64,000 nucleotides of DNA from an uncultured Treponema sp. (GTDB lineage: Bacteria > Spirochaetota > Spirochaetia > Treponematales > Treponemataceae): positions 248,001-312,000 of the forward strand of contig NZ_CAMCEC010000001.1 in NCBI RefSeq assembly GCF_945873775.1, read 5' to 3'. The notes under the pieces are model-generated. The model saw nothing but the letters and a program-made list of their open reading frames with translations, made no database searches and was not told the origin of the DNA. Made by a program: the position numbers and the translations under genes. Positions 61,205-64,000 of this stretch are shown piece by piece. The stretch's first letter is position 1, and every line of letters begins with the position of its first letter.

Positions 61205-61888
61205 ATGGCAAAGCAGGAATTATATGAAAGAAGCCCGATCCGCATTTTTGACGAAGCGGCAAACGGAGGACTCAAGGCTGGCGAGCTAGGACTTGTTACA
61301 GCAAAAAAAGGACTTGGAAAAACTTCTGTGCTTGTTCAGTTCGGAATGGACACACTTCTTAACGGAAAGCAGCTTGTTCACGTTTCGTTCAATCAGCACA
61401 GCGAAAATGTAATTTCTTGGTATGATGGAATCTACAACGAAATTTCAAAGAAAAAGGCAATCGCAAACGCCGCTGATGTAAAGGAGCAGATTCTCCGCAA
61501 CAGAACAATTTTGAATTTCAATCAGGACAACATCAGCCTGGAAAAAGTTGTTAACACATTGAACGCTCTCAAGGCTGGCGGAACAGCAGTTGCAGGAGTT
61601 GTTATCGATGACGTTGACTTTTCAAAAGTAAAAGAAGCAGACTTGCAGACAGTCGCAAGCTACGCAAAAGCAACAAAGACAAAAATCTGGTTCAGCTCAA
61701 CTTCAGCCGGCGACAAACTTGAAGATTCAGCACCAAAGGCACTGCTTCCATACTTCTCTGCTGTAATCCACCTTTCATCAAAGAATTCTGTAACACAGCT
61801 AAGCATTCTAAAAATGGGCAAGAACACAGATATTGAAACAACACTTAAGCTGGACTCAAAGACACTGCTCATTACAAACAACAAGTAA
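61205..61888 (+). CDS. RecA/KaiC-like P-loop ATPase, unknown role
   Basis: 227 residues: Walker A TAKKGLGKTSV (about 32-42), Walker B GVVIDDVDF (about 137-145), a sensor-like WFSSTSAGD and no signal or DNA-binding domain. The start RSPIRIFDEAANGGLKAGEL resembles the KaiC/RadA/DnaB core entry. A single-domain ATPase of this kind may form hexamers, but partner and substrate are not evident. It has its own promoter, AGGAGG and terminator, and faces the conflict-system genes end to end. Confidence 0.7.
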   Translation: MAKQELYERSPIRIFDEAANGGLKAGELGLVTAKKGLGKTSVLVQFGMDTLLNGKQLVHVSFNQHSENVISWYDGIYNEISKKKAIANAADVKEQILRNRTILNFNQDNISLEKVVNTLNALKAGGTAVAGVVIDDVDFSKVKEADLQTVASYAKATKTKIWFSSTSAGDKLEDSAPKALLPYFSAVIHLSSKNSVTQLSILKMGKNTDIETTLKLDSKTLLITNNK

Positions 61889-61926: not shown

Positions 61927-61956
61927 ACTTTGAAAAACGAGGCTAAAATAAAACGG

Positions 61957-61987
61957 CTGCCCTTTAGAAATAGAGGGCAGTTTTTTT
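61957..61987 (+). terminator. Terminator of the RecA/KaiC-like gene
   Basis: CTGCCCT (61957-61963) and AGGGCAG (61974-61980), followed immediately by seven T (61981-61987). Confidence 0.85.
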
Positions 61988-62040
61988 GTTTATGAAACAC
62001 TATTGAAAGAAATTTGGACTAAATAAAAGAATTTTCCTTG

Positions 62041-62149
62041 AGTAAATACGTTATTTTCCATTGGCAAACAGCTTATTTACCTTAGTAAAATAGTCTATTT
62101 ACCACAGGTAAATATATTATTTACCCATGGTAAATAGATTATTTTACTA
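62041..62149. repeat. 11-bp-phased array of ten alternating 8-bp half-sites
   Basis: Half-sites TATTTACC and its complement GGTAAATA alternate, each separated by exactly three bases: starts at 62041, 62052, 62063, 62074, 62085, 62096, 62107, 62118, 62129 and 62140. The four at 62096-62136 are perfect; 62041, 62074, 62085 and 62140 differ slightly, and 62052 and 62063 are the most degenerate. Equivalent to five 22-bp palindromic units. The strand can also fold into one hairpin of about 33 pairs from 62083 to 62149 centred on 62116. It lies between the 3' ends of two convergent genes, 20 bases from the DUF2326 gene stop. Confidence 0.88.
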
Positions 62150-62168: not shown

Positions 62169-63836
62169 TTATTTTTTTACCCACTTGCTGGTTCCGTAGA
62201 GCTCTCCGCCATTTGTAGACAACTTTAACACACGGCTGTCTTCAATGATTGCCTGAACTTCAGGACTGTAATTATAAATAGAACGGAACGCTGTAAAGAT
62301 TTGTTTTTCTTTTTCCGTTGCATACAGCTTGATGCAGTCTTCTTTTCTTTCTGCGTCCAATTCGTTGCGGACAAAAAGGTCGTGCGCTATTGCAGGAAGC
62401 TTTGTCTGTTTCAAAATGGACAAATCAAACATCACAATATTTGCGCTTTCTGTTCCGTCTCCCTTATCTGTTCCAGAAATTATTGAATACCGGCTTACAC
62501 CTTTTGCATTGCTTGTTTTTGGCTCAAAAAATTTAAGGGTTGGATTTTTCCATTTGCCATTATGTATATGTCCATTCAAAGCCGCCATATTAAGATTCAC
62601 TTGGCTTGCAATTTCATCCAAAACATTGATTTCTTTCTTGTTCAATTCCTTTTTTGCCGCGGAATCTTTCAACGCAATGAGCTTACCTTTTTTATAGTTT
62701 TCAATGCAGTCGTAAAGCCGCTGAAGCTCAAGATATTTCTTTCCATAGACATCAAACGCCGCCTTTGAAAGTGTTCCATCAGGAAGGACTTTTTCATATT
62801 CAGACTTTATTGCCTCAAAGTCCAAATTGGTCTGGTTAAGATTCATTTTTAAATACTGAATCTCATCATTTATTTGAAGCTTTAAAACTTCTGTAAGAGA
62901 CTCATGGAATTTTTCAACCGCATAAACTTTTTTTACATTCAGCTCCGGGAAAAAGGACTGGAGAACAGAAAGTTCTTCTCTTGTAGGAGAAGACAACCCT
63001 TCAATAGAATGCTCGGCAACAGCAATCTTGTTTTCAAGCCTTGTTTTCTTAACGCTTATACTTTTATATTTTTTCTCAAGAGCCTGAAGTTTTTCCGCAT
63101 TATTAGAATCTATAGCAAGGATTTCTTTATCGTTCGTCCTGCTCAACTCAGAGAGTTCTTCTTTCAGCTGGTTTATATTTTCATATACATCTGCTAAATC
63201 AGAATCCGTTTTTATAGAAGTCGGTATAAAATTTCTTTTTACTGCGTCATTAAAAGTTTCTTTTGCTTTTGCAGCATCATCGGCGTTATTTTTTTCTGCA
63301 GAAATCTCTTCGTATCGGTCAAACAATTTTTCAAAATTAACAACGCAATCGCGGGCATTTTCCATTGAATTTCCTTTTAAAAATTCCTCAAGGTTCTTTG
63401 AGCTTTTGTGGGATATTCTAAAATACGGACTTACTGCTCCTCTGAATGTAAGGGATTCATTTTCAAAACCGTAATTTTCTGCAAGCCTTTTTTGAAATTC
63501 CTTAAGGGAAATTTTATCAATAGCAGAATAGCTTTTATCACACACGCTGACATTATTCAAATCTTCCGTAGAGCGGCTGTAGTAAAATTTTTCTTCTTTA
63601 AACTCAAATGTAAAGTTGACTACATGATGCCCGACATTTTCAATGATTTTTCCGCCGCCTGTAACATAGGTGTTTCCACCGAAAGCAAAATCAATAGCAA
63701 GAAGAAAACTGGATTTTCCTGTGGAATTGTTTGTGGATTCGTTTGCGACAATTGTATTCAGGCCTTTGCGAAATGGTATTTTTCCGTTCTGAATATATTT
63801 GCCTTTAAAAACACTGCTTTGGATTTCTACAAGCAT
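62169..63836 (-). CDS. DUF2326 Rad50/SMC-like ABC ATPase of an ABC-3C-type conflict system
   Basis: 555 residues. N-terminal ABC half with Walker A STNNSTGKSSFLLAIDFAFGG (about residues 34-54) in the arrangement of SMC/Rad50-like ATPases, a predicted coiled coil (about 165-420), and a C-terminal DUF2326 domain with FDLSILKQTKLPAIAHDLF, KEKQIFTAFRSIYNY and VLKLSTNGGELYG. DUF2326 ATPases are components of ABC-three-component systems thought to defend against phages or plasmids. Its ATG overlaps the end of the upstream small gene by ten bases. The effector component would be off the right edge. Confidence 0.85.
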   Translation of the reverse strand: MLVEIQSSVFKGKYIQNGKIPFRKGLNTIVANESTNNSTGKSSFLLAIDFAFGGNTYVTGGGKIIENVGHHVVNFTFEFKEEKFYYSRSTEDLNNVSVCDKSYSAIDKISLKEFQKRLAENYGFENESLTFRGAVSPYFRISHKSSKNLEEFLKGNSMENARDCVVNFEKLFDRYEEISAEKNNADDAAKAKETFNDAVKRNFIPTSIKTDSDLADVYENINQLKEELSELSRTNDKEILAIDSNNAEKLQALEKKYKSISVKKTRLENKIAVAEHSIEGLSSPTREELSVLQSFFPELNVKKVYAVEKFHESLTEVLKLQINDEIQYLKMNLNQTNLDFEAIKSEYEKVLPDGTLSKAAFDVYGKKYLELQRLYDCIENYKKGKLIALKDSAAKKELNKKEINVLDEIASQVNLNMAALNGHIHNGKWKNPTLKFFEPKTSNAKGVSRYSIISGTDKGDGTESANIVMFDLSILKQTKLPAIAHDLFVRNELDAERKEDCIKLYATEKEKQIFTAFRSIYNYSPEVQAIIEDSRVLKLSTNGGELYGTSKWVKK

Positions 63837-64000
63837 ATTATTTCCCCTGTAACATTGTCTATATCAATTTTTCCAAGCGCATACAAAGCGTCCAAAGTCT
63901 GTATAAATTCAGAAAGAGATGAAAAATGGCTTTTTACATTTTTATAAAGCTGCTCTGGAAAAATTCTTTCATTTAAAGTCATAGCCTGCAAAACAGGAAC
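63827..64000 (-). CDS. C-terminal part of a small protein, probable ABC-3C middle component (cut by window edge)
   Basis: The last 57 residues are visible on the minus strand, read by hand; the start lies beyond base 64000. The end, FIQTLDALYALGKIDIDNVT, resembles the winged-helix C-terminus of the small 'middle component' proteins (MC6 type) encoded just before DUF2326 ATPases, where a final helix '..ALDLLYALGKI' is followed by a short strand. The stop overlaps the ATPase start by ten bases, indicating translational coupling. The family call rests on this short piece plus context. Confidence 0.6.
   Translation of the reverse strand, partial: VPVLQAMTLNERIFPEQLYKNVKSHFSSLSEFIQTLDALYALGKIDIDNVTGEIICL

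Follow-up and report, generated by a model that had tools for sequence, protein, structure and literature searches.

The Lamassu locus and the neighboring palindromic array

The window analyzed here, a 64,000-nt stretch of the genome of an uncultured Treponema sp. (G000), carries a resident KaiC/RecA-like ATPase gene downstream of fusA (61205–61888, plus strand), followed by the gene's intrinsic terminator (61955–61982, plus strand). Convergent with it lies the gene for a DUF2326 Rad50/SMC-like ATPase, the LmuB of Lamassu/ABC-3C systems (62169–63836, minus strand), next to which are a small gene in the middle, LmuC position (63827–64000, minus strand, running beyond the window end) and then the CTD11/LmuA gene (L006:7038-7955), encoding a 305-aa protein. 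The operon gave family matches to CTD11 (1.4e-9) and DUF2326 (2.6e-7), and PADLOC models recognized the CTD11 protein as LmuA (2.7e-18) and the DUF2326 ATPase as LmuB (1.2e-7); the middle position is a 76-aa ORF with no family match. A single operon therefore holds an LmuA with a C-terminal CTD domain, a middle component, and an LmuB ATPase, as is characteristic of Lamassu/ABC-3C. ABC-3C systems have been assigned to the Lamassu superfamily, of which the Vibrio Lamassu reportedly responds to hairpin-forming palindromic DNA (PMC10586767; PMC12409362; PMC12904381).

Between the two convergent genes, ~20 bp from the DUF2326 stop codon, a class-A phased palindromic array occupies positions 62041–62149. 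It consists of five 22-bp units (62041–62059, 62063–62081, 62085–62103, 62107–62125, and 62129–62147) with the consensus GGTAAATAGWCTATTTACCnnn. These comprise ten 8-nt half-sites separated by 3-nt gaps throughout, with no indels. Half-sites are exact in 5 of 10 cases (three TATTTACC and two GGTAAATA), and the remaining five differ by one or two changes. When the window was searched for the unit at ≤2 mismatches, all five matches fell inside the array, a count that none of 100 dinucleotide shuffles reached; the alternate register was concordant, and TRF likewise reported a period of 22. At the same threshold, this is the sole array in G000, and no isolated copies of the palindrome occur elsewhere in that genome. 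The array is real and far beyond chance.

Part of the array (62083–62149) is capable of forming a long, near-perfect hairpin or cruciform, with 32-nt arms (62083–62114 and 62118–62149; 91% complementary) around a 3-nt loop centered on 62116. The predicted RNA folds of the array have energies of −42.5 and −44.8 kcal/mol (z −10.2 and −8.3). An earlier, sequence-only reading of this DNA had described the alternating half-sites with their 3-base gaps, the hairpin, the convergent gene ends, and the adjoining ABC-3C-type system, all of which are borne out. Its further claim that every site lies on one face of the helix does not hold, because an 11.0-bp pitch, set against ~10.5 bp/turn, drifts by ~17 degrees per site. 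Since tandem 22-bp palindromes automatically place their dyads 11 bp apart, what stands out is the palindromic tandem with its 22-bp period, and the 11-bp phasing simply follows from it.

Comparison with relatives places the array near a junction. In the close relative G198, 97% identity extends over the ATPase gene as far as 61994, and at 61994/61995 it ends; there, as in G043, gpmI adjoins the ATPase gene instead, and G198 lacks the array segment. The Lamassu locus thus interrupts an ATPase–gpmI order retained in both relatives, and the history of the window locus is one of insertion or REARRANGEMENT. Among the roles proposed at the outset, an integration scar, in the sense of a border, comes nearest to this evidence. 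In G238 (93% identity), the left array end is kept, and a deletion next to it reaches into what is left of a decayed DUF2326 gene, so the array and the Lamassu locus are older than the G000/G238 split. Another array in G238 ends exactly at a synteny break with G000. Decay of the CTD11 Lamassu locus, through deletions, IS insertion, or reduction to C-terminal remnants, is frequent in the genus, and the array often remains (decayed loci L209 in G203, L212 in G142, L213 in G043, L220 in G165, L210 in G172, and L092 in G238).

Arrays behind DUF2326 genes and at unrelated loci

Pattern searches, which turned up further arrays in G031, G108, G165, G198, G238, and G239 (the MAG Tb.RUG.33), at first gave the impression of a generic repeat with no tie to DUF2326. 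That view was overturned by a scan of DUF2326 loci: related arrays lie directly behind DUF2326 genes or their remnants in seven genomes besides G000 (G031, G042, G054, G142, G165, G172, and G203). In G042, G054, G031 (C19), G142, G203 (where the array is degenerate), and G172 (C23), the class-A array starts ~0–60 bp from the DUF2326 stop; in G165, the array found by pattern search was later shown to adjoin a DUF2326 remnant rather than an intact gene. Lamassu proteins at the array-bearing loci form three groups that are only 28–32% identical, and G042 and G031, whose LmuB proteins share 32% identity, have almost the same right half of the array. In a profile census of 200 congeneric genomes (model R1), 7 of the roughly two dozen array loci were DUF2326-adjacent, figures to be read with the filters dropping weak matches and with the loci not being independent, since several genomes share ancestry. 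This proportion is far above that expected of random landing, so the link with Lamassu calls for inheritance, exchange, or function.

No array was found at the CTD11 systems of G136 and of G043 (the latter broken by an IS), at the CTD10/SMEK-type DUF2326 loci of the genus, or at the DUF2326 fragment on a T. saccharophilum plasmid. The 3′ ends of DUF2326 relatives on plasmids or phages of Shewanella, Halomonas, Xanthomonas, Streptococcus, and Ruminococcus also lacked it. Being missing from DUF2326/CTD11 systems outside the genus, the array is not an intrinsic part of such systems. To the question of whether it always neighbors DUF2326, the answer is therefore divided: it recurs immediately after DUF2326 genes elsewhere in the genus, yet it is also present at many unrelated loci, which the sequence-only reading had named as evidence against its own proposal. 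The same two facts, dispersal and absence outside the genus, weaken the idea that the array is a dedicated ligand sensed by the ABC ATPase; what still speaks for it is that Lamassu has been reported as responsive to palindromic DNA (PMC10586767).

Genes adjoining the non-DUF2326 loci include a permease gene, gltX, and SUMF1-like, Vsr, AddA/HsdM, and HU-type genes (the names SUMF1 and AddA were assigned from reading the sequences), and some of these loci carry altered half-sites (GGTACATA, TGTAACTA) that keep the layout GTAnnnAGWCTnnnTAC. Class-A loci number 1–5 per genome. In G108, the array lies within a sharply bounded 247-bp element that has equal length in 5/5 copies at five unrelated sites, the other copies being 82–94% identical to the query copy; the element also holds a 22-bp array of another kind (class B, GATGAAAAT). 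Class B lies beside class A at G239:C29 and stands alone at G239:C43, and copies in G239 have their unit order in common over 130–218 bp at 80–86% identity, with the second array type included. In G000 itself, a sequence profile found a second, short copy at G000:C7:95526, which shares with the window the left array end and ~12 bp of flank (62029–62088, plus strand; 60 bp, 83%, E 1e-12).

No mobilizing enzyme came to light, and a Y1 transposase of the RAYT type (PF01797) gave no match in G000, G108, or G239. Among the five G108 copies, a target-site duplication was suggestive in one and convincing in none, and terminal inverted repeats were weak. Sequenced phages, plasmids, and viral contigs yielded nothing convincing as an origin; a match in Pelagibacter (L032), which precedes an HTH regulator gene, has the appearance of an unrelated operator and was set aside. 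We found no description in the literature of such arrays in Treponema, nor of a Lamassu locus that harbors a palindromic array.

Nature of the signal and other 22-bp array types

Within class A, the half-sites are conserved position by position, while the outer 3-nt spacers vary at random in sequence but not in length. Complementarity between adjacent half-sites did not exceed that of shuffled order (p 0.22), i.e., there was no covariation beyond the consensus, and a hairpin kept by selection was rejected for this class on that ground. Covariation at p 0.01–0.04 appeared for array types F and C and the chain at L126, values that are uncorrected and come from the register picked for best score. 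The sense strand was more stable than the antisense in 6 of 15 arrays (p 0.22), and Rfam reported tRNAs and no family for the array, so we also rejected a structured RNA: neither a family match nor stem covariation nor strand-specific stability was seen. The arrays beside intact Lamassu loci, except in G000, have stems of only 8–10 bp. With no covariation, no strand bias, no Rfam match, and short stems, a maintained RNA or DNA hairpin is unsupported as the conserved feature, and half-site sequence recognition or simple duplication of units fits better.

A sequence-independent scan for equally spaced dyads revealed further 22–24-bp palindromic arrays of unrelated sequence in these genomes. Spacing was exactly 11.0 bp in 23 of 43 calls, versus 3 of 22 in three rounds of shuffles, where a few of the 43 calls repeat one array in overlapping loci and many loci had been fetched because of their arrays. 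Controls of 200 kb each from G043 and G102 and of 150 kb from E. coli gave no arrays at 11.0 bp, which argues against a general property of bacteria or of the genus. One such type, a class-E 22-bp array (TGAAATTAAGTTAAAATCAA), is dispersed in G000, G238, and G198 (L088:8640-8900 in G238; L117:11380-11560, i.e., G000:C1:151366; G000:C13:48597; and G000:C34:1998). Its orthologous copy upstream of gltX has ~8 half-units in G000 versus ~22 in G238. Elsewhere, at L126:2700-2860 (G238) and L141:3130-3320 (G108), successive hairpins with differing stems follow one another every 22 or 24 bp, in contrast to the uniform arrays. At L143:1740-2220 and L080:5917-6240 (G239), several different 22–23-bp arrays stand side by side in one intergenic region.

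Possible origins and roles of the array

We favor, with moderate confidence, the reading that the array belongs, as a single copy, to a dispersed repeat of this Treponema-type lineage, a non-coding mosaic of tandem palindromes with BIME/MITE-like behavior that recurs at the border of a variable Lamassu locus. Several unrelated intergenic sites per genome carry elements of constant length or constant unit order, in which different 22-bp array types are combined as mosaics, and unit numbers vary between relatives at one orthologous class-E site. Conserved half-sites with random, fixed-length spacers suggest that a sequence-specific dimeric protein may recognize the units. The repeats would have spread via a trans-acting activity together with recombination, slippage or recombination between units might lengthen and shorten individual arrays, and the arrays could then serve as borders for the exchange of variable cassettes. 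Recurrence behind DUF2326 would reflect inheritance plus cassette exchange between the array and a nearby conserved HU-HIG gene. This HU-HIG/DUF4469 gene lies beside the Lamassu operon at L006:8213-8980 (65213–65980 in window coordinates, past the window end) and is possibly the conserved border of a defense hot spot. The arrangement in relatives supports the border reading: the HU-HIG gene is ~80% identical across G042, G054, G031, and G203, and the Lamassu proteins enclosed between it and the class-A array are ~30% identical. The array is thus probably a neighbor or border of Lamassu and not a working part of it.

Among known repeats, REP/BIME elements, defined as regularly spaced palindromic units of alternating orientation (PMC2817692), resemble the arrays in being intergenic, dispersed, and species-variable mosaics of unit types with regular spacing. 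They differ in their copy number (>100 per genome, against at most ~5 class-A loci here), in their GTAG-type head, which the class-A consensus lacks, and in their cognate RAYT; class-A arrays, moreover, are AT-rich and strictly tandem at 22 bp. A RAYT-driven REP was rejected because G000, G108, and G239 gave no Y1 transposase match. The fixed-length, sharp-ended G108 element is reminiscent of a MITE, although its terminal inverted repeats are weak, no target-site duplication is clear beyond a possible one in one copy of five, and no parent transposase was identified. The Lamassu/ABC-3C/DdmABC comparison rests on the adjoining operon with its LmuA (CTD11), middle gene, and LmuB (DUF2326), whereas related systems outside the genus have no array.

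A functional link between array and Lamassu is possible, though less likely and not the best-supported reading. In its general form, which we regard as unlikely, the SMC-like LmuB would bind or sense the array, which would act as a decoy, a set-point, or an autoregulatory site and so adjust how hairpin DNA activates the system. This draws on the recurrence of the array immediately after DUF2326 genes or their remnants, seen in three divergent groups and in seven genomes of the genus besides G000, and on published work (PMC12409362). Persistence of the class-A consensus beside Lamassu genes of ~30% identity could also reflect selection, contrary to the dispersed-repeat reading. Against a role in Lamassu stand the many non-Lamassu loci bearing the same element, including those in genomes without detected DUF2326 (e.g., G108), and its absence behind the CTD11/DUF2326-type systems of Shewanella, Halomonas, Xanthomonas, and Streptococcus/Ruminococcus phages and behind the CTD11 system of G136, as well as the short stems at intact loci other than that of G000 and the lack of covariation between adjacent half-sites. 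The narrower version, in which LmuB docks on the chromosomal self-palindrome as a resident ligand that would hold the complex, set its activation threshold, or guard against auto-activation by the cell's own repeats, seems distinctly improbable.

It is likewise rather unlikely that the array serves a dimeric protein of XRE or HU type, either a regulator or a nucleoid protein, that binds successive 19-bp palindromes about two turns apart and thereby insulates, silences, or regulates the flanking genes. Conserved half-sites with length-fixed spacers and the lack of unit-level covariation are what sequence recognition predicts, and XRE genes adjoin arrays in G031, G054, G142, G203, and G237, as HU-type genes do in G108 and G222 and also near Lamassu loci. 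However, the adjoining HTH families differ, gene context and promoter position are not fixed, G000 offers no isolated palindromes at ≤2 mismatches, and fixed-length multi-copy elements look mobile. An RNA-level role, with the hairpin acting at 3′ ends of convergent transcripts as a terminator or mRNA stabilizer, is very improbable: the predicted fold is very stable, a terminator-like call was made on the DUF2326 strand, and several arrays lie between convergent genes, yet others are flanked by divergent genes (G108:C17, G222:C91), a separate terminator already serves the ATPase gene, and the Rfam, strand-bias, and covariation results all speak against it.

The dispersed tandem-palindrome repeats appear to form an undescribed class, with a 22-bp period, several unrelated sequence families per genome, and no RAYT, placed repeatedly at the edge of a defense system reportedly triggered by palindromic DNA. 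Such loci would offer a direct test of the way in which a cell with Lamassu copes with long palindromes of its own, and should the arrays be no more than borders, they would still show where Lamassu alleles are swapped.

Two further observations were made. One G108 copy of the array (G108:C9:52321-52519) sits a short way upstream of the fusA–KaiC-like ATPase gene pair that also precedes the window array, which may be coincidence. Separately, a dispersed element of ~82 bp with the ends GCAAACGCATTAT and ATAATGCGTTTGC (L088:8505-8587 in G238) is present in some ten or more copies per genome in both G000 and G198, at 86–95% identity, and looks like a separate MITE family.
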